Source: a virus. Taken from it: 31,536 nt of DNA. Below the pieces are notes generated by a model, which saw only the letters and a list, made by a program, of their open reading frames with translations, was not told the DNA's origin and made no database searches. Shown here one piece after another: positions 10,276 through 31,210 of this stretch (position 1 is its first letter; every line of letters starts with the position of its first letter). Made by a program: the position numbers and the translations under genes. Location: the IMG/VR virus record IMGVR_UViG_3300009702_001272, positions 1 to 31,536 of that record. One strand, given 5' to 3'.

Positions 10276-11031
10276 TCAACCAAGTCGATACACAGCATTC
10301 AGTGTTTCAACCGACTGCTCGAATGACACGCCCTTGATTCCGAGAGTTTTCAGATCGGGGGGCTCCGCCTCGACCTCTTCGATGAATCGCCGCATGTCGT
10401 CGCTGATTGTTTCCGGAATCGACGCTTTGTATTCGGGGTCGACGATCTGTGTCAGCCGAAATACATCGTTCTTGTGCTTCTTGATTGTCTTGCTATCAAC
10501 TCGATCGCCAGCCTCTCGACGCTCGCGCAGATCGAGCCAAGCCCGCGCCTTAAGCGGGATCAACCGCTCCGCTCCAAGCGCTGGAATACCCTCGATCTCG
10601 GTCTTTCCCTCGTGAATCCAGCGGTAGTAATCTTCGTCCAGCAGGATCGCCGAGAGGCTGGACACCTCGTCATCGATCGGGATCGGCGTCAGCACACTCT
10701 CGCCTGTGATGACCAGCGCGTCCGGCACACGGGAAAAGAGTTCGAGCATCTCCGGATAGGAATCATCCGTCGGCCTCTGAAACCGGTAGAACCGTTTCTC
10801 GCCCGTGGAGGTCTCATTGATTTCGTAGCCCCCTGCTTTCACGAACGACCAGAACTCCTTTGCGAACTCTTGATCGAGCGCCTCGACACACAACACGATA
10901 TCGAGGTCGCGCGTCACCCTGAAGTCGAGCCCAGCGTCGGTCATCGCCAGGTCGCACGCGGTCCCGCCGATCAGGACGTACCGATCGCCGAACGCGCTGA
11001 AATGATCTCGGAAACGCTCCAGTCCTCTCAC
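10276..11031 (-). CDS. AbiEii-like nucleotidyltransferase toxin
   Basis: A 251-residue protein with a nucleotidyltransferase core: the GG motif in VLIGGTACDLAM (residues about 20-30) followed by TRDLDIVLCVE, which gives the paired aspartates D42 and D44. This matches the AbiEii/AbiGii nucleotidyltransferase toxins, a class known to block growth by modifying RNA (tRNA in studied MenT/AbiE-type toxins). I placed the start at GTG 11031, which overlaps the stop of the upstream antitoxin candidate (GTGA). It is encoded directly downstream of that gene and in the same direction. Codon use and base composition look less GC-rich than the neighbouring virion genes, consistent with an acquired insert between terminase and connector genes. 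Confidence 0.82.
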   Translation of the reverse strand: MRGLERFRDHFSAFGDRYVLIGGTACDLAMTDAGLDFRVTRDLDIVLCVEALDQEFAKEFWSFVKAGGYEINETSTGEKRFYRFQRPTDDSYPEMLELFSRVPDALVITGESVLTPIPIDDEVSSLSAILLDEDYYRWIHEGKTEIEGIPALGAERLIPLKARAWLDLRERREAGDRVDSKTIKKHKNDVFRLTQIVDPEYKASIPETISDDMRRFIEEVEAEPPDLKTLGIKGVSFEQSVETLNAVYRLG

Positions 11032-12014
11032 CAAGGCAGGGTCTCCAGCATCTGTTCTAGCGCCATCTCGACCCGCTCATCCGACTCACCTCGGAGAGTG
11101 AGGTACAGCGACAGCGGATCAACGGTTTCGTCTTCGCTCAGGATCCTAGGAGGATACTTCCAGATCTCGACATCGACCACGCCGATATCGCGCATGGGAA
11201 CCCGTTCAATCACCCCGCTCCGTTGGGCCGACCTCCAGTCATCCCGGTCGGCCGCGATAACGGGGATGTTCGGTTCGGCCAGCATCGATCGTTGAGCGAG
11301 CGCGCTGACGCCCGCGGTCAAACCGTGCAACTCCTGAATCTCTCCCCGAACGTGAAACAACCGCTGAACCGGAGAACGAAGCATGGGGAGCGCCTTGTCC
11401 CAGATCACACGCTTGGGAGCCGTTAGGCAAACCTGTCGTGCTCGATCTACCGTTCTGGATTCTGCAAGTTCGGCGTTCTCAAGTTCATCGAACGCCCGAC
11501 TCAGCGTAATAGGCGCATATTGCAGCTGTGGGCCAAGCTGGCTCGCGGATGTGGCTGCCATCTCGTCCAGCTGCAGCAGCATGTAGATCAACACCGCCTG
11601 TGTAGACGGAGCGAATGCCTCTATCTCTGGCTCAAGTGGCCTATAGATTTCGCTGAAATCAATCCCCAACGGCAGCAAGTACATGTGCTTCCTGGGAACG
11701 ATGAACGGAATTCGGTGATCTATAAGCCGCTTTCGGTTGTACGACGTGATGGAATCACGCACGTACACGACCGGGTTCTCAAAGATTGCTTCTGTCTGTT
11801 CGAGGTGCTTGCTGATCGTCTTGGGCGTCTCCTCCTCCGACCGCCTTGCCACCATGAACAGGAGCGGGTCCCCGAAAAGCCGACCCTCGTAGAACGAATA
11901 CCGGTCCCGAAGAAACAGAGGCAGTCGCCTCGCCCCCTCCCATCGCCACAGCATTGCGTGGCCACCAAACGCGTCCTCAAGGTATCCGGCGATATTCCGA
12001 GTGATCCGCTGCAT
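11028..12014 (-). CDS. Antitoxin / transcriptional regulator of AbiE-like pair
   Basis: A protein of about 328 residues from the ATG at 12014 (340 if the longest start is taken). A helix-turn-helix-like segment lies near the middle: AFAPSTQAVLIYMLLQLDEMAATSASQLGPQLQYAPITLSRAFDELENAELAESR, which reads as a winged helix (MarR-like). The gene precedes the nucleotidyltransferase toxin and overlaps it by 4 bp, the order of AbiEi-AbiEii pairs, where the first gene represses the operon and neutralises the toxin. Upstream ATGs at 12050 and 12023 lie within or before the predicted promoter, so the leaderless 12014 start is preferred. The inverted repeats in front of it would be the natural operator. 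Confidence 0.72.
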   Translation of the reverse strand: MQRITRNIAGYLEDAFGGHAMLWRWEGARRLPLFLRDRYSFYEGRLFGDPLLFMVARRSEEETPKTISKHLEQTEAIFENPVVYVRDSITSYNRKRLIDHRIPFIVPRKHMYLLPLGIDFSEIYRPLEPEIEAFAPSTQAVLIYMLLQLDEMAATSASQLGPQLQYAPITLSRAFDELENAELAESRTVDRARQVCLTAPKRVIWDKALPMLRSPVQRLFHVRGEIQELHGLTAGVSALAQRSMLAEPNIPVIAADRDDWRSAQRSGVIERVPMRDIGVVDVEIWKYPPRILSEDETVDPLSLYLTLRGESDERVEMALEQMLETLPW

Positions 12015-12021
12015 CAGGGTC

Positions 12022-12050
12022 ATTATACCAGTATTTTTGCACATTACCAA
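12022..12050 (-). promoter_or_regulatory. Predicted promoter of the toxin-antitoxin operon
   Basis: On the minus strand a perfect TATAAT (-10) is at 12027-12022 and TTGGTA (4 of 6 matches to the -35 consensus) at 12050-12045, with a 17-bp spacer. A start about 7 bases downstream of the -10 falls on the ATG at 12014, so the message would be leaderless. The site is AT-rich, in contrast with the neighbouring coding sequence. Confidence 0.6.
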
Positions 12051-24064: not shown

Positions 24065-24248
24065 GGGATGGCTCCGTGGTTGGGCGGGATCGGACTCGTC
24101 GGGGAAGAAATCGCGCATAAACGCCCCTTGCCCCAGCCGGACGAGCGGGACGCGGTCGGTGGTGTGGAGGTCGGACGGGTTGGGCGGCGATTGGGAGAGG
24201 GGCACGCCTGTACCCCTCTGCCCGAGCCGCCGAACTGTCGCGCACCGG

Positions 24249-24803
24249 TTAACAGAGCAGGGATTTCGCCGGCGCCAGAAGCTCGCGCAATTGCTTCACA
24301 CGTCGGTAACCCGTTCCGCGATGCACGCCGCAGTCGTCCGCGATCTCGGCCACGGTCTTGGACTTGAGCTGGTCGGCCAGCTCCCCGAGCTCACGCGGCA
24401 GCGCCTGAAGCATGGGCTCGAGATCCATCCGCAGGTCCGATTCGGCGACGTGGTTTGCTCGGCGGTCCTCGATGTCCGGCGACTGGCTGACCCGGTCGGG
24501 CAGCGGCACGAACACCGGTGATCGCTTCCGGCGAGAGCGGAGCTGACGGGCGGTGTGCTTGTACCAGCGGTCCATGACGCGCCGGGAGAAAGTCGCCGCC
24601 GAGGACCGCGCGGGGTCGTGCCGGCCCATGGCGCGGATGACCTCAAAGGAAAGATCCTGGGCGAGGTCTTCCCGATCCTCGATGGAAAGGCGGAAGACCC
24701 GGGCGAGGCGGTCGGCGCGGTAGCGGATCCGGCGTTGGGTCAGGGAGTCGAGGTTGGTGGGGGCGGCGGGTTTTGTGACGATCGGGTTGGTAGCAGCGGC
24801 CAT
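24249..24803 (-). CDS. ECF-like sigma factor
   Basis: A 184-residue protein from ATG 24803, which has GGAG 6 bases upstream; 11 residues further upstream would start inside a hairpin. Region 2 is visible in LARVFRLSIEDREDLAQDLSFEVIRAMGRHDPARSSAATFSRRVMDRWYKHTARQLRS, and region 4 in MLQALPRELGELADQLKSKTVAEIADDCGVHRGTGYRRVKQLRELL. It would redirect RNA polymerase to phage promoters, probably late or early genes. It lies at the head of the replication genes. No anti-sigma gene is seen next to it. Confidence 0.85.
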   Translation of the reverse strand: MAAATNPIVTKPAAPTNLDSLTQRRIRYRADRLARVFRLSIEDREDLAQDLSFEVIRAMGRHDPARSSAATFSRRVMDRWYKHTARQLRSRRKRSPVFVPLPDRVSQSPDIEDRRANHVAESDLRMDLEPMLQALPRELGELADQLKSKTVAEIADDCGVHRGTGYRRVKQLRELLAPAKSLLC

Positions 24804-24827
24804 TGTGTGCTCCGGTGAGGTGACGCT

Positions 24828-24846
24828 GCGACGCACATCGCGTCGC
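24828..24846. promoter_or_regulatory. Perfect 7-bp inverted repeat in the sigma factor leader
   Basis: GCGACGC (24828-24834) and GCGTCGC (24840-24846) with a 5-base loop, 25 bases upstream of the sigma factor ATG on the minus strand. Could be an operator or a leader hairpin. A weak TTGTTT...ATACTT promoter candidate lies further upstream. Confidence 0.45.
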
Positions 24847-24903
24847 GTTCACCAGCCGGGCGGCCTTGCAACTGACCGCGAAGTATTCTGCCACCATCAG
24901 CGC

Positions 24904-24933
24904 AAACAACAGCAAACCCGCGACTTGCGCGGG
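24904..24933 (-). terminator. Terminator-like hairpin after the unknown two-gene unit
   Basis: On the minus strand CCCGCG and CGCGGG (24933-24928 and 24922-24917) pair around a 5-base loop, followed by TTTGCTGTTGTTT, a T-rich but interrupted tract. It lies 35 bp after the stop of the 333-residue gene and separates it from the sigma factor gene. Confidence 0.55.
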
Positions 24934-24967
24934 CTGAAACACGGGCTTGCACTTGCGCCAAACGGGT

Positions 24968-25969
24968 CTAACTGCAAGACGGCGTCAAACGCCGGTGGTT
25001 CTCCCACCAGCGGAGCAGGCCGTCGGGGTCGCACAGGAGGTCGAAGATGGGTTTGAGATCGGCCCCCGCATCATCTTTGAACGCCCGGGAGAGGTCGTAG
25101 TCCCGGCAACCCGCTCGGAGAGCGATTTCGATTCTCGTGATTGGAGGGAGTTGAGGCGTGTCCCCGCACTCATATGCAAACTTCACGATGTTCACCCGCG
25201 ACTCAGCCTCGAGCACGAGCTCCCGCCGAATCGCCGCGATCTTGCTCAACCGCTCGCCACGTCGACGGCGGGGACGCTTGTTCTGCGTTGCAGACGGGAA
25301 CGACACGCCCGCCCGCTTTGCGAACGAGCCCAGGAACTGCGGCCACAACTCGGACGCGACGATCATCCCGTCATCGTCCGCTTCGAGCACGTCGTGCAAC
25401 GGGACGAGTGTGCCCTTCCGGGATTCCACCCATCCCCGCAGTTCGTCCGTCCACCCGTCCGCCGTCGGCGTCAGCACCAGCGCCGGGCGGTCTGATTCGA
25501 GGACAGCGCCACGAATCAGGCTCGCGAGCTCCGTCACTTTCGAGTGGGCAGCGAGAACTACAGGGAAGGCTGTTGAGCGCTGCGGCTCCCATGTTCCGAT
25601 CCGCAGGACCCCGGGCACCGATGCGACCGGTGTCGTTGACGTGCAGATCCCGAGCGCGTGCGCGATCACGAGGCGAGCGTCTCGCCAAGAAACCCGGTGG
25701 AGCATGGCCTCATCGGCGCTGAGATCGACGCGCGGCGAGACGCCGGCGTCGCACACCGCACCCAGCGAGCCGTCCCGGTAGTGAACCACTCGCAGATCAG
25801 GCGCATTAACAAGATTCGATGGATATGTCGGCGCAATCGCGCCGGCGGGCTCCAGCAATGCACGAGCCGGCCCGAACGCATCCCCGCAGGCGGCTTCCCA
25901 CGCCGAGCGCGTCTCCCCGCGCCCCGGGGCAAACTCAACCTGTCGCCAGAAGGACTCGAGTGAGGCCAC
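24968..25969 (-). CDS. Unknown protein B of a two-gene unit
   Basis: A 333-residue protein that I cannot assign to a family. The N-terminal two thirds look like a mixed alpha-beta domain (RVVHYRDGSLGAVCDAG, ARLVIAHALGI, AFPVVLAAHSKVTELASLIRGAV). A basic linker (NKRPRRRRGERLSKIAAIRRELVLE) precedes a C-terminal helical part that may bind DNA or another protein. The GTG start has GGAG 9 bases upstream and overlaps the upstream gene by 35 bp in a different frame, so the two are likely coupled. A terminator-like hairpin follows. Confidence 0.75.
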   Translation of the reverse strand: MASLESFWRQVEFAPGRGETRSAWEAACGDAFGPARALLEPAGAIAPTYPSNLVNAPDLRVVHYRDGSLGAVCDAGVSPRVDLSADEAMLHRVSWRDARLVIAHALGICTSTTPVASVPGVLRIGTWEPQRSTAFPVVLAAHSKVTELASLIRGAVLESDRPALVLTPTADGWTDELRGWVESRKGTLVPLHDVLEADDDGMIVASELWPQFLGSFAKRAGVSFPSATQNKRPRRRRGERLSKIAAIRRELVLEAESRVNIVKFAYECGDTPQLPPITRIEIALRAGCRDYDLSRAFKDDAGADLKPIFDLLCDPDGLLRWWENHRRLTPSCS

Positions 25970-27110
25970 GTGTCGCTACTCCTCGATCTCGGAGGAACCC
26001 GCGCAACGCGAGCCACCGTTGGAACACTTCGCAATCTTCACCCACGATGTCGTTGGGCGGGACGACCCGACGCGTTGTTTCGCGCCCGTCTCGATACATC
26101 AGCCGGAATGTTGCGCTGAGCAGGACCGCGCCCGCAGGGAACGTGTCGCCCTCATCTGACATTCCCCGAAACACGTCGTCGAATGGCCCGAGCCGTCGCT
26201 TCATCTTCGATCCGGGGTGCCTCCACTCCAGTGCGATCAGACGCACGCGCGCAAGCTCTGGCACGTCCCCGCAGTCCAGGCATCGCGTGCCCTGCACGAT
26301 GATGGGCGTCAGCGAGTACCGGGCAGGGAGCCCCTCGGAGAGGAACAGCGCCGTGTTGCCGAAGATATGCTCTCCGACGTACCCGAGGTATGCCCTGGCG
26401 TCGGCGTCTGTCTTTGCGTTGACCAGGAGTTCGCCATCGCCGCACGTGTAGATCAGCGCATCGAACCGCTGCGGCCTGAACGCGATGTGCCTCGTGCTCG
26501 CGGTCACCGGATCAACGACCGCTTCTCGGTGGAGCACATCACCGCGGCGGATCAGCATCCGGAACCCATCATCCGTCATGACCGGATAGACACGAACACC
26601 CCCGCCCCGACGACGGTGGACGAAATCCAGATCGAGCGCGAGCCGGAGTTCTTCGATGTTGTGATCGGGGATCGATCGGACCTGCGGCGGTTCGTCGGTG
26701 AGCGCCAGATGGCTGCGGAACTTCCTTCGTGCGATCAGGAGCTGCTCCGCGTAGATCCGTTCAAGGGATTCAGCGCCGTCGAGCAGAAGCAGGACGACCA
26801 GGTCGCCGGCGCTGGCGTCCTCTGGCACATCAAGGTCAAGGCGTGTCGCCTCCCCAAGCAGTTTGTCGAAATTCGACGGGCGGGCCATCTCGTCGATGAC
26901 CCCGATCTGATCGATCAAGTCGTCGGGGAGGTCCGGGCCGAGGTCGCTGAAAAGTCGCGCAACCGCGTCCTCATCGAGGCCCGCAGCAATAAAGACGCCC
27001 CTCGGTTCGAGATGTTTTCTGAACTGTTCAAGGAACCGCAGCAGGAGCTCGGGTTTGACCCCGCTGACTGATTCCGGATTCGCCAATCGACCCGACCGAA
27101 CTCTCGCCAT
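25935..27110 (-). CDS. Unknown protein A of a two-gene unit
   Basis: A 391-residue protein of unknown family. It begins with a helical region (KPELLLRFLEQFRKHLEPRGVFIAAGLDEDAVARLFSDLG), then beta-rich parts with clusters such as HRRRGGGVRVYPVMTDDGFRMLIRRGDVLH, RFDALIYTCGDGELLVNAKTDADARAYLGYVGEHIFG, and IIVQGTRCLDCGDVPELARVRLIALEWRHPGSKMKRRLGPFDDVF. A CLDC motif might bind metal. The ATG has GGAG 6 bases upstream. It is followed by protein B in a 35-bp overlap. Preceded by its own promoter and two hairpins, so it looks like an independent cargo or regulatory unit. Confidence 0.75.
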   Translation of the reverse strand: MARVRSGRLANPESVSGVKPELLLRFLEQFRKHLEPRGVFIAAGLDEDAVARLFSDLGPDLPDDLIDQIGVIDEMARPSNFDKLLGEATRLDLDVPEDASAGDLVVLLLLDGAESLERIYAEQLLIARRKFRSHLALTDEPPQVRSIPDHNIEELRLALDLDFVHRRRGGGVRVYPVMTDDGFRMLIRRGDVLHREAVVDPVTASTRHIAFRPQRFDALIYTCGDGELLVNAKTDADARAYLGYVGEHIFGNTALFLSEGLPARYSLTPIIVQGTRCLDCGDVPELARVRLIALEWRHPGSKMKRRLGPFDDVFRGMSDEGDTFPAGAVLLSATFRLMYRDGRETTRRVVPPNDIVGEDCEVFQRWLALRGFLRDRGVATRGLTRVLLATG

Positions 27111-27126
27111 CCATATCTCCGTGAAT

Positions 27127-27169
27127 CCCCAGGTCCTTCTGGGGCGCCACGTCCACGTAAATCGTGGCG
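27127..27169 (-). promoter_or_regulatory. Tandem hairpins in the leader of the unknown two-gene unit
   Basis: Two perfect inverted repeats abut: CCCCAG/CTGGGG (27127-27132, 27139-27144) and CGCCACG/CGTGGCG (27145-27151, 27163-27169). With transcription starting near 27173 on the minus strand, the 7-bp hairpin would sit almost at the 5' end of the message and the other 16 bases before the ATG, near the ribosome site. They could stabilise or control translation. Confidence 0.5.
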
Positions 27170-27179
27170 ACCGATGGAG

Positions 27180-27208
27180 ATTCTACCCGAGATGCAAAAA
27201 CTGCGCAA
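27180..27208 (-). promoter_or_regulatory. Predicted promoter of the unknown two-gene unit
   Basis: On the minus strand TAGAAT (27185-27180) is preceded after 17 bp by TTGCGC (27208-27203). The -10 matches the consensus at 5 of 6 positions; the -35 is weak. The site lies in the gap between the HTH gene of the recombinase cassette and the unknown gene. Confidence 0.5.
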
Positions 27209-27235
27209 CCCATCCACGCAACCGACAGTTATTTG

Positions 27236-27655
27236 TCAGGATGTGGGGATTCCGTTGGATCCGGCGAGGTCTCGCCAGGCCCCCCGCTGCCGCCCCCAAT
27301 CGACCTCAGCCGCGATCGGCCGCAGATCCCGCTCCGTGATCGGGTCCCTGCCCTCGGTCACCGGCGGCAGGAAAAGGACGGCCTCCTGGATGTCCGGAGC
27401 AAGGTGCACGAGGTTCATGATCTGTGTCACCCGAGCGCGGGTGACGTGGCCGATACGGGCCAGTTCGGCTTGATCTGTGATCGCGCCCTCGCCCAGCAGC
27501 CGGTCAAACTTGATCGCCAGCGCCATCAGGCGGGCCACGCGCGGGATTCGGCCTCGGGCATCAACGGATGCTCCAGGCTTGGCGCCAATCCGCAGCTCGC
27601 GCCGGCCGCGGCCTCCGACCGCGAAGTGAACCGTGCTCGTGATCGTCGCGCTCAT
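27236..27655 (-). CDS. HTH protein of the recombinase cassette
   Basis: A 139-residue protein. Residues about 60-85 (AITDQAELARIGHVTRARVTQIMNLVHL) form a clear helix-turn-helix of ParB/KorB-like type. The start codon overlaps the recombinase stop (ATGA). In other genomes small HTH genes often follow DUF2924 and a serine recombinase; this is family knowledge, not seen here. It probably controls the cassette or assists recombination. Confidence 0.8.
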   Translation of the reverse strand: MSATITSTVHFAVGGRGRRELRIGAKPGASVDARGRIPRVARLMALAIKFDRLLGEGAITDQAELARIGHVTRARVTQIMNLVHLAPDIQEAVLFLPPVTEGRDPITERDLRPIAAEVDWGRQRGAWRDLAGSNGIPTS

Positions 27656-29037
27656 GCGGCTGCTACCTCCTCAGCGCCCTCGGAACGAACACCCTCCCGG
27701 AACGTCACGCTGATGGTCCCGTTCGGGGCGTCCCACTCAACCCGGGCGACGATCGCCCTGATCAGTTCTTCGCGCTCGCTCTGCGTCATCGCTTCCCAGA
27801 CCGGATCGAATGACTCCGCCGCTCCAACGAGCTCGTCAGGATCCACAACAAGATCCGGCTGGCTCTTGGCAAGTAGTTCGATCGCTCGTTTCGTGACGGC
27901 GTCTACGGTCGAGTCGCGCGTGATCACATCGCGGATCCGCTCGAGCACAAACGATTCGAGGTCGCTCGCGGGCAAGGATGGCCCCGGGCATGACGCCCAG
28001 CCCTGCTTCTGCGCTTTCATGCAGACGTAGTAGCGGTACCGCTTGGTCCCGTTGCCCGTCTTCTTGCTCGCGAAGTGATGGATCATCCCGCAATCACACG
28101 CTGCGCAACGCACCAGGCCCTTGAGCAAGGCGCCGTGCGCGTTGCTCAGCCGCGATCCCCCGGCGCGGCCGTTGAGCCGCATCGTCGCCTGGACACGATC
28201 GAATACGTCCGCATCCACGACGCCATCGTGCACGCCCTCGTAGATGTTCTCGTTGTGCCGTACTTTGCCGATGTAGACCGGGTTGATCAGCATCGCGTAG
28301 ACGGCTCCCTTATCGAGCGCCCGCCCGCCCATCGGTTTGCCGGCCTTCGTCGTCCACTTCTTTGTCGTCCAGCCTCGCCGTGCGCATTCGGCGACAACGG
28401 GCATCAGCGATCCCAACTCCAGGTAGATATCGAATATCCGCTGCACACGGTCGGCCTCGCTGCGGTTGACCTCAAGTCTCCCCCCACCGGGTTTGGAGAC
28501 AAGGTCGTACCCCAGCACCGGCCGTCCGCCGGCCCACCGCCCCTTCCGCCGCGCCGCAGCGATTTTGTCGCGTGTCCGTTCTGAGATGATCTCCCGCTCG
28601 AACTGCGCGAACGAGAGGAGGATGTTGAGCGTCAGCCGCCCCATCGAGTGCGTGGTGTTGAACTGCTGTGTGACGGAGACGAATGAGACGCCGTGCTCCT
28701 CGAACGTCGCCATCATCCGCGCGAAATCCATCAGCGACCGGCTAAGGCGATCCACTTTGTAGACTACGATGCAATCGACCAGGCCGGCCTCGATGTCTTC
28801 GATGAGCCGTTTGAGGGCGGGGCGCTCGATGTTCCCGCCGCTGAACCCGCCGTCGTCATACCGATCCGGAAGGCAAGTCCACCCCTCGGCCTTCTGGCTC
28901 GCGATGAACGCCTCGGCGCTCTCGCGCTGCGCATCGAGCGAGTTGAACTCCTGCTCGAGCCCCTCCTCCGTGCTCTTGCGGGTGTAGATCGCGCACCGCA
29001 CCCGCTTGCGCTCGCTCTTTACGGCACGCTTGCTCAC
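27652..29037 (-). CDS. Large serine recombinase (putative phage integrase)
   Basis: A 461-residue recombinase. The resolvase domain has YTRKS with catalytic Ser22, VYKVDRLSRSLMDFARM, and FERE; the recombinase domain contains a zinc ribbon with CAACDCGMIHH and a later VCMKAQKQGWASCPG. A coiled-coil-like C-terminus follows. Large serine recombinases of this type integrate phages or act in site-specific excision. The GTG start has GGAG 5 bases upstream and overlaps the DUF2924 stop (GTGA). Its attachment sites were not identified. Confidence 0.93.
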   Translation of the reverse strand: MSKRAVKSERKRVRCAIYTRKSTEEGLEQEFNSLDAQRESAEAFIASQKAEGWTCLPDRYDDGGFSGGNIERPALKRLIEDIEAGLVDCIVVYKVDRLSRSLMDFARMMATFEEHGVSFVSVTQQFNTTHSMGRLTLNILLSFAQFEREIISERTRDKIAAARRKGRWAGGRPVLGYDLVSKPGGGRLEVNRSEADRVQRIFDIYLELGSLMPVVAECARRGWTTKKWTTKAGKPMGGRALDKGAVYAMLINPVYIGKVRHNENIYEGVHDGVVDADVFDRVQATMRLNGRAGGSRLSNAHGALLKGLVRCAACDCGMIHHFASKKTGNGTKRYRYYVCMKAQKQGWASCPGPSLPASDLESFVLERIRDVITRDSTVDAVTKRAIELLAKSQPDLVVDPDELVGAAESFDPVWEAMTQSEREELIRAIVARVEWDAPNGTISVTFREGVRSEGAEEVAAA

Positions 29038-29561
29038 GCGGTCTCCTTCCTGTTGGATCGCTTCCGGGACTTCGCCAACCCGAAGAAGTGGAACCCGTTC
29101 CAGTGCGACCCGCTGATGGCGTGCGCCGCCGCTGTAAGCGATCGGTGCACCTGGCCCTCGTGCTCGAAGCCGTCGGGCAGCACCATGACGCGGTGCTCCA
29201 CTCCTTTGAAGACCCGCGTCAACACCGTGCCCGGCATCGGGATCCGATCGTCCGTCCGGCGGACCATCCGGCCCGACACCGTCCGGAGGTTGGCGCCCAA
29301 CTCCGGTCCGCGATCCCGGGGCGGGCGAACCCGCAGATCTTCGTCCCGGGCAATCTCCTCGGCTCGCCGCCTGGCCCGCTCAGTCAGGTCACCCTCGGCT
29401 AGCGCCTGGAGCCGCCAGGCGATCCGCCGGATGAGCCACCGCCGATTGCCCGACCGGCTCGGCTCGCCAAACACCTCGGCGAAGCGCTCGCGGAGTTGGC
29501 CGACGGATAACCCGTCGAGTTCGTCAATCTTCTGTCGTGTATTGTCCGGCTTCATCATCAT
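29034..29561 (-). CDS. DUF2924 family protein
   Basis: A 175-residue basic protein. The pattern LSVGQLRERFAEVFGEPSRSGNRRWLIRRIAWRLQALAEGDLTERARRRAEEIARDEDL followed by GTVLTRVFKGVEHRVMVLPDGFEHEGQVHRSLTAAAHAISGSHWNGFHFFGL is that of DUF2924, which is coded next to serine recombinases in many phages and islands. ATG 29561 with GGAG 8 bases upstream was chosen over GTG 29567. Role unknown, probably in recombination. Confidence 0.9.
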   Translation of the reverse strand: MMMKPDNTRQKIDELDGLSVGQLRERFAEVFGEPSRSGNRRWLIRRIAWRLQALAEGDLTERARRRAEEIARDEDLRVRPPRDRGPELGANLRTVSGRMVRRTDDRIPMPGTVLTRVFKGVEHRVMVLPDGFEHEGQVHRSLTAAAHAISGSHWNGFHFFGLAKSRKRSNRKETA

Positions 29562-29563
29562 GC

Positions 29564-29821
29564 TCACGTCTCCACATCCCCGGCCCCTCCGCTCTCGGGC
29601 GGTGTACCAGTGGGACCACTGAGCCTCGGATCCGCCTGGAAATCAAGGGTGATTTCGGAGGATTGTGGGCAACTGACGCCGGTGGTCACGGACGCCTCGA
29701 TCACTCGGACGAGCCCCGCCGCGAGCGCGTCGATGACCGTGTTGGCACGCGGATCGCGCTGTGGCATGGCCGGGACGGCCACCGCCACGGAGTTGGGTGG
29801 GCGAGGCATGGGTTGGGGCAC
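29564..29821 (-). CDS. Small protein upstream of DUF2924
   Basis: An 85-residue open frame from GTG 29821 (ATG at 29809 and 29767 are also possible). The centre ANTVIDALAAGLVRVIEASV is helical; the rest is proline- and glycine-rich. The stop is 2 bp before the DUF2924 ATG. It could be the first gene of the recombinase cassette. No good ribosome site is seen before the start. Confidence 0.45.
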   Translation of the reverse strand: MPQPMPRPPNSVAVAVPAMPQRDPRANTVIDALAAGLVRVIEASVTTGVSCPQSSEITLDFQADPRLSGPTGTPPESGGAGDVET

Positions 29822-30260: not shown

Positions 30261-30674
30261 ATGAAGAACCGAAACCTGTTCATTAGCCACTCATGGACCT
30301 ATGGGGACGCCTACGAAAAACTGGTCGGCCTGCTTGATGCGGCGCCACGATTCGAGTACAGCAATTACTCAGTTCCAAAGGATGACCCGATCCACAATGC
30401 CCCGAACACTACGGCACTAACCGCAGCAATAAAGTCGAAGATGTCATTCTGCCATGTTGTCATCATCGTCGCAGGCGTATATGCAACCTATAGCGATTGG
30501 ATCGATCGAGAAATTCAACTCGCCAACTCAGGATTCAGCACCCCAAAGAAAATCCTCGGCATCAACCCCTTCGGGAGCGAACGAACATCCACTGTCGTTC
30601 GAACCAGCGCCGACCTGATGGCGAATTGGAACACCAACTCCATCGTGAGCGCCATCCGGGAACTCTCACCGTGA
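30261..30674 (+). CDS. TIR-domain protein (MTH538/ThsB-like)
   Basis: A 137-residue protein that is almost entirely one TIR-like domain: NLFISHSWTYGDAYEKLVGLLDAAPRFEYSNYSVPKDDP, then FCHVVIIVAGVYATYSDWIDREIQLA, where E84 is placed like the TIR catalytic glutamate, and ILGINPFGSE and NWNTNSIVSAI near the end. This is the MTH538-type (DUF1863) group that includes ThsB of Thoeris. Such TIR proteins make NAD-derived signals or degrade NAD on infection. AAAGGA is about 9 bases before the ATG. It is followed by a membrane protein gene in a GTGA overlap. Confidence 0.85.
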   Translation: MKNRNLFISHSWTYGDAYEKLVGLLDAAPRFEYSNYSVPKDDPIHNAPNTTALTAAIKSKMSFCHVVIIVAGVYATYSDWIDREIQLANSGFSTPKKILGINPFGSERTSTVVRTSADLMANWNTNSIVSAIRELSP

Positions 30675-31210
30675 CTGATTCAGATGACGACCAGAGACCC
30701 AGCCTGATATCAACTTTGCCAGGTGTCTCAGAGAATGAATACGGCCCGCTCTACAGAGACCATGTGCTCGACATCTACAAGCTGTACCTTGGGATGACGG
30801 ATCGAATCAGCGACCGCAGGGAGAAAGCAAACTCTTTTTTTCTGGCCGTCAACACCGCGATCATCATCGTCATGAGCAAGGGACTCCTCGGTGATAGCGA
30901 AGGCCTGATCGCCCTATCGTCGTTAGTATCCATTGCCGGCGTCACTATCTGTTACATCTGGCACCGTATGATCAGGTCGTACCGCCAACTGAACTCTGCG
31001 AAGTTCAAGGTTGTCCACTCGATCGAATGCCAGCTGCCGCTCCGACCATTTGATGCGGAATGGGAAGCCGTTGGCCGCGGGGATGATCCGAAGCTCTACA
31101 TCCCATTCACACATGTCGAGAAGTGGATGCCCACTGTGTTTGCCGCGATGTACGTTGTCGTACTCTTATCGAGTGTCCAGTGGGGACAGATCCTCAACGT
31201 GTTCTGCTGA
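30671..31210 (+). CDS. Membrane protein paired with TIR gene (RipA/SLATT-like)
   Basis: A 179-residue protein from GTG 30671, which overlaps the TIR stop. It has a cytosolic N-terminal helix (YRDHVLDIYKLYLGMTDRISDRREKANS) and two adjacent membrane segments (FFLAVNTAIIIVMSKGLL; IALSSLVSIAGVTICYIW), then a cytosolic part and a third hydrophobic segment near the end (MPTVFAAMYVVVLLSSV). The first part resembles SLATT or RipA-family membrane proteins, often effectors in bacterial defence islands. A pore or membrane-disrupting role is inference. Confidence 0.78.
   Translation: MTDSDDDQRPSLISTLPGVSENEYGPLYRDHVLDIYKLYLGMTDRISDRREKANSFFLAVNTAIIIVMSKGLLGDSEGLIALSSLVSIAGVTICYIWHRMIRSYRQLNSAKFKVVHSIECQLPLRPFDAEWEAVGRGDDPKLYIPFTHVEKWMPTVFAAMYVVVLLSSVQWGQILNVFC

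Follow-up and report, generated by a model that had tools for sequence, protein, structure and literature searches.

A phage gene pair combining an RdgC-type fold with a helix-turn-helix partner, and its putative DNA site beside the early region

In phage lambda, the cI gene precedes rexAB, and RexB is a membrane protein. Phage repressor-operator modules such as those of CI and ImmR consist of a helix-turn-helix (HTH) protein and its own inverted repeat beside the early operon, with exchangeable specificity. The fold of lambda RexA is of the RdgC/Iml3/Chl4 type; the protein binds DNA and tips the balance between lysis and lysogeny (PMC11077077).

The gene pair A-B, found in a 31.5-kb virus record (the whole stretch of DNA analyzed, hereafter the window), recalls both systems. 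As in the CI and ImmR modules, an HTH protein (B) and an inverted repeat tied to it by sequence association (O1) lie beside the early operon, and specificity likewise appears exchangeable. Unlike in those modules, B has no S24 peptidase domain and has a partner, A; the unit comprises two genes with a fixed overlap, and the site lies after the regulator gene. The predicted fold of A may link it to RexA by way of RdgC/Iml3/Chl4, and A lies directly after a repressor-type gene in several relatives. However, no sequence relation between RexA/RexB and A-B was found, A carries a further helical domain at its N terminus, B is predicted to be soluble with an HTH and a cognate site in contrast to the membrane protein RexB, and A-B heads the early operon.

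The A-B gene pair and its genomic setting

An earlier note on this DNA had described an undescribed two-gene unit of 391 and 333 residues with a 35-bp overlap, and the open reading frames agree exactly (Table 1). Neither A nor B matched Pfam, PHROG, NCBIfam, PADLOC or PDB sequences, as its statement of no recognisable family had implied. Direct searches with the two window proteins found nothing in viral contigs, genome contigs, isolate phages or the PDB, and A of a relative had no match in isolate phages or plasmids. The family was reached through a search of genomes with related integrases. Among 298 genomes from the bacterial class to which a Phycisphaeraceae MAG belongs, A was present in 22-25 and B in 21, mostly those with A; A also occurred in two further phylum-level samples, and a seven-sequence profile recovered 52 proviral contigs. 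Hosts were identified for a minority of the proviral loci.

Table 1 Features of the A-B region in the window (nucleotide positions; domain limits in residues)
Feature	Position	Strand	Description and basis
Protein A gene	25935-27110	(-)	ORF, 391 aa, start ATG
Protein B gene	24968-25969	(-)	ORF, 333 aa, start GTG
A/B coding overlap	25935-25969	(-)	35 bp, conserved register, translational coupling (putative)
A domains	25935-27110	(-)	N-terminal helical + RdgC / CENP-N / CENP-L-like (RexA-type) alpha/beta; AlphaFold2
B domains	24968-25969	(-)	Soluble alpha/beta 1-225; long helix + C-terminal HTH 235-328; AlphaFold2
Two leader hairpins 5' of A	27127-27144, 27153-27167	(-)	Sequence, fold z -2.2
O1, putative B site	24947-24977	(-)	31-bp dyad TTGCAGTT-N15-AAGTGCAA overlapping the B stop codon
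Terminator-like hairpin between O1 and sigma-like gene	24915-24935	(-)	Sequence scan
O2, half-site-like CAGTTGCAAGG	24864-24874	(-)	In conserved CGC-N-CTGCAA block; B-to-sigma intergenic alignment, weaker than O1
Leader RNA hairpin of sigma-like gene	24828-24846	(-)	7-bp stem, 5-nt loop, covarying
Sigma-like gene	24249-24803	(-)	Probable ATG at 24803, GGAG upstream; first early-operon gene after O1

B lies directly 3' of A at nearly every locus where the pair is complete or the contig continues. The overlap measures 26-50 bp and is 2 mod 3 in nearly all loci, its register is retained even at 25-30% identity, and the first conserved residues of B fall at one fixed offset from the A stop in most loci. 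In several lineages (at least six genomes; L074-L077, L170, L171 and L173), A and B are fused as a single ORF. These comparisons support a conserved A-B unit well. Conservation of the N-terminal residues of B could by itself account for the fixed overlap register. Some paralogues of B occur without A; at L147-L152, several prophages per host genome retain B with swapped C domains and have lost A.

In the window, A-B is preceded by a DUF2924/serine integrase/ParB-HTH-like cassette (27236-29567) and followed by the sigma-like gene and then by genes for an AAA_24/Sak4-like ATPase, DUF669 (identity read from the sequence), a helicase and a primase, a site between integration cassette and replication genes that the earlier note had recognized. 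The survey took in 83 loci, with some overlap or repetition among them. In 73, nearly all of those extending that far, the sigma-like gene is on the same strand about 2 kb downstream of the A centre, and the order that follows is AAA_24, DUF669 and helicase (recombination and replication). A-B is divergent from the integrase cassette at L097, L098 and L100, and the same cassette is also found in elements without A-B, beside restriction-modification or other cargo (gene identities read from the sequence). Since A-B is fixed in position by the early genes and the cassette occurs without it, the pair travels with the phage early region and not with the integrase. On sequence grounds, A-B is a core, position-fixed early-region unit of a large, poorly catalogued temperate phage group.

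This setting bears on the suggestion that the pair represents accessory defence or immunity genes at a common cargo site. No PADLOC model matched the window A and B, 41 A relatives or 38 B relatives, and an accessory defence cassette was rejected on this null result together with the fixed core position and the absence of A-B from cargo-bearing cassettes. A survey of gene neighbours, which the note had directed at defence islands, placed the homologues in the phage early region. Immunity is plausible in the sense of lysogeny control and not of accessory cargo: immediately 5' of A, several relatives carry a LexA-like S24 repressor or an Xre and ImmA-type (M78 peptidase) pair. Of the expression signals proposed for the unit, the two leader hairpins are present (196 of 200 shuffled versions fold less well than the 70-nt leader of A, z -2.2), as is the terminator-like hairpin after O1. 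The unit's own promoter was not confirmed, no sigma-70-type site being recognisable in 24700-27700. Terminator-like sites numbered five in the region, against 1.8 expected.

Several observations concern other genes. The DUF2924/serine integrase/HTH cassette at L002, L004, L005, L007 and L012 lacks phage genes and lies beside restriction-type genes, and thus seems to mobilise defence-island-like elements too. Very distant A-B pairs occur in other element types (L155, 6904-9038; L157, 5344-7288), one of them adjoining a restriction-methylase-like gene and an AlpA-like/primase pair. Where the phage record ends, the window encodes a ThsB-like TIR protein of 137 aa (Pfam ThsB_TIR, E 1e-10; PADLOC ThsB, E 2e-11; PHROG 6988) followed by a probable membrane protein (30261-31210, + strand), a candidate TIR-based defence pair. 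Between portal and terminase, two overlapping genes of 252 and 340 aa (10276-12050, - strand) look by eye like a nucleotidyltransferase toxin and antitoxin (AbiE-type), with weak CARF-type PADLOC matches and no NCBIfam match.

Predicted folds of A and B

The AlphaFold2 model of A (pLDDT 85) gave E. coli RdgC as the top Foldseek match (E 9e-5), followed by inner-kinetochore proteins. VIA likewise ranked RdgC first (Z 11.3, rmsd 6.0, 224 aligned residues), with CENP-L at Z 10.0, Iml3 at 9.4 and CENP-N at 9.0; the best 16 rows were all RdgC or CENP-L/N/Iml3/Chl4 (Z 8.1-11.3), and the next unrelated row scored 6.6. A RexA entry was absent among the VIA matches listed, and the relation to RexA runs through RdgC/Iml3/Chl4. 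An RdgC-type fold of A is thus well supported by the predicted structure. RdgC, a recombination-associated ring protein, is 8-12% identical to A, and the two differ in that A lies in a phage early operon, has the constant partner B and has no match to Pfam RdgC (or to any Pfam family) at E<=10; none of 41 relatives matched Pfam RdgC. With the eukaryotic CENP-N/CENP-L (Chl4/Iml3), A shares the fold (Z 8-10) and no sequence similarity; the CENP-N/Chl4 alignment takes in part of the N-terminal helical domain of A. This is a relation of fold only, and function is not transferable. Through A, the RdgC/RexA/CENP-N fold would gain a prokaryotic branch that has its own dedicated partner. A CLDC motif pointed out earlier is present in A at residues 277-280 and is not a family motif, only its second Cys being common in relatives; a zinc motif was rejected for lack of conservation.

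B was modeled as a compact protein (AlphaFold2, pLDDT 91.5) with an alpha/beta domain and a C-terminal HTH whose helices lie at 279-298. Relatives of B gave LacI/Crp HTH matches at the same place (E about 0.01, below the Pfam cut-off). The basic linker noticed earlier corresponds to a basic stretch, RPRRRR, at residue 232, which runs into the long helix before the HTH. Foldseek returned nothing significant for B against the PDB and BFVD. The structure prediction proposed in the earlier note thus yielded a fold for A and no significant match for B, and the resemblance to phage replication, repressor or metabolic proteins that it held would contradict its reading was found in part, in the fold of a recombination protein for A and a regulator-like DNA-binding architecture for B. 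The weak best matches of the alpha/beta domain were all PD-(D/E)XK nucleases (Z <=7.2, within the usual noise range). No conserved D...(D/E)xK active-site residues occur in 38 B relatives, and an active nuclease was rejected, the similarity (Z 7.2) being weak and of fold only.

The two parts of B have separate histories. Its relatives share a common N-domain and carry at least three different C-terminal domains. In one host genome, two B proteins have N-domains with 77% identity and C-domains with 23%, a further pair shows 80% and 31%, and the reverse also occurs (N 38%, C 77%). Judged from these identities, the N and C domains of B recombine independently. An OmpR-type winged helix for the alternative C domains was a pattern only, unsupported by two sequence searches; a family search also gave no support, at a threshold too strict to inform.

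Given these folds, A-B could be a RexAB-like exclusion or abortive-infection pair of the lysogen, with A as the counterpart of RexA (a DNA-binding trigger) and B as its partner. The RdgC/Iml3/Chl4 fold of RexA is consistent with this, as is gene order: in the lambda immunity operon the repressor gene precedes that of RexA, and A follows repressor-type genes in several relatives. Nevertheless, we consider it quite improbable, because RexB is a polytopic membrane protein, whereas B is compact, has no strong membrane segment (maximum hydropathy 1.48 in the window protein) and ends in an HTH tied to a site, and because A-B is core to the phage rather than accessory and has no PADLOC match.

The O1 dyad and the leader of the sigma-like gene

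We found an inverted repeat, O1, at the end of the B gene; the earlier note had missed it, as it had the leader hairpin of the sigma-like gene. For the HTH type of the window the consensus is TTGCASTT-N15-AASTGCAA. The window copy is exact, and allowing up to 3 mismatches uncovers no further match in the 31.5 kb (0.09 expected). The dyad was seen in 20 inspected loci, -7 to +34 nt from the B stop, three of which have altered letters with unchanged spacing. Relatives have one O1 per locus after B, with two overlapping registers at one locus. Six of the eight inner pairs are invariant, and even very divergent phages keep the 15-nt spacing; the outer positions vary freely yet stay paired, and T's follow in many relatives.

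The letters of the dyad in the B-to-sigma interval track the C-domain of B and not the N-domain, and homology resumes after the dyad. TTGCAGTT is found in L059, L149 and L151, TTTCACTT in L152 and GCTACG dyads in L147, and other C-domain types have other dyads at the same place (e.g., AAACCGCCG-N15-CGGCGGTTT). We also scanned 2.9 million viral contigs for the O1 pattern using DNA only, with no protein input. At least 119 loci were listed, 40 of them with the site positioned -7 to +43 nt relative to a B-family stop codon, including a few contigs already known from the protein search; the other 79 are probably mostly chance matches. The B genes of the 40 often score 25-85 bits, many being too divergent for protein search, and some share mainly the C-terminal HTH with B. 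A sigma-like gene comes next in 39 of the 40 and an AAA_24 gene is present in 36. In many of them the gene 5' of B is a far relative of A (profile-profile probability 98.8%, 365 columns, 14% identity), against 0.1% for the same relatives compared with B as a control. The pairing of B with O1 is well supported by this association, and O1 is proposed as the binding site on which B very probably sits.

Three other readings of O1 were weighed. In the first, O1 serves mainly to end transcription of the A-B operon as an intrinsic terminator, and B leaves it unbound. A hairpin with a T-rich tail is present in more than half of the type-i loci and the outer stem pairs covary, yet terminators do not need fixed arm letters, the invariant inner pairs or a constant 15-nt spacing, a clear T run is missing from the copies in the window, L055 and L056, and the letters change with the HTH of B. 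O1 as mainly a terminator is therefore very unlikely. Since the outer stem varies with pairing kept and T's follow, O1 also looks like a terminator, and it probably doubles as a terminator stem in many phages.

A partition or segregation complex, corresponding in phages to CENP-N/L and using O1 much as a centromere, would accord with the CENP-N/Chl4 alignment of A and with the single site per locus. It is scarcely credible, given that the elements carry a serine integrase, that no ParA-like gene was seen beside A-B and that the genes conserved alongside the pair are early lytic ones.

Exchange of DNA-binding domains also occurs among the origin-binding proteins of phages, and the domain exchange in B parallels theirs. 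A-B might be a replication or recombination initiator pair, in which B marks an origin at O1/O2 and RdgC-like A manages strands for the Sak4-like ATPase, DUF669, helicase and primase; the best fold match of A is a recombination protein, and the operon downstream serves recombination and replication. We regard this as unlikely, as the site consists of one dyad and a half site, with no iteron array in 24200-27700, and O1 keeps a near-fixed distance to a structured mRNA leader, which fits a promoter better than an origin.

That leader belongs to the sigma-like gene, so labeled from a PHROG match (PHROG 1740 sigma factor, E 2e-11) together with a Pfam match below threshold (Sigma70_r2), and found at the same position and strand in nearly all relatives. 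In its hairpin, 99.1% of cells are paired, compensatory changes occur in five of seven pairs and 0 of 500 shuffles did as well, statistics computed on the same sequences from which the structure was read. The covarying hairpin lies at a near-constant distance after O1 in relatives, which suggests a transcription start between the two.

A proposed role in lysogeny

We lean towards A-B as the regulatory head of the early region in a large group of temperate phages, with B on O1 and A as its partner. B would bind O1 through its C-terminal HTH, probably as a dimer on arms two helical turns apart, and may also bind the weaker O2 in the B-to-sigma interval. From O1/O2, B would control the sigma-like gene and those for recombination and replication, most likely keeping their expression low in the lysogen; we infer repression rather than activation. 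The overlapping reading frames would tie the amount of A made to that of B in a fixed ratio, and A, as a DNA-clamping partner acting with B on DNA, might stabilise, loop or relieve the B complex. Since some members of the group have an ordinary repressor 5' of A, the main repressor is not necessarily A-B.

Differences in HTH and site among prophages would then set which related prophages coexist, a presumed immunity role; close paralogues in one host genome have different HTHs and sites, as expected under such a system. More tentatively, and at somewhat less than even confidence, A-B-O1 may be an undescribed type of lysis-lysogeny switch in several bacterial groups, in which an RdgC/CENP-N clamp works with an HTH partner and domain and operator are exchanged together, setting immunity groups among prophages resident in the same host. 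For two families that no annotation library tried contains, in a phage group scarcely sampled by isolate collections, the analysis offers a functional hypothesis and a defined DNA site. Specificity can be tested directly through the swapped HTHs and the sites that match them.

The leader of the sigma-like gene also contains a CCTCC/GGAG pairing besides its hairpin, and the two together make translational control of this gene possible.
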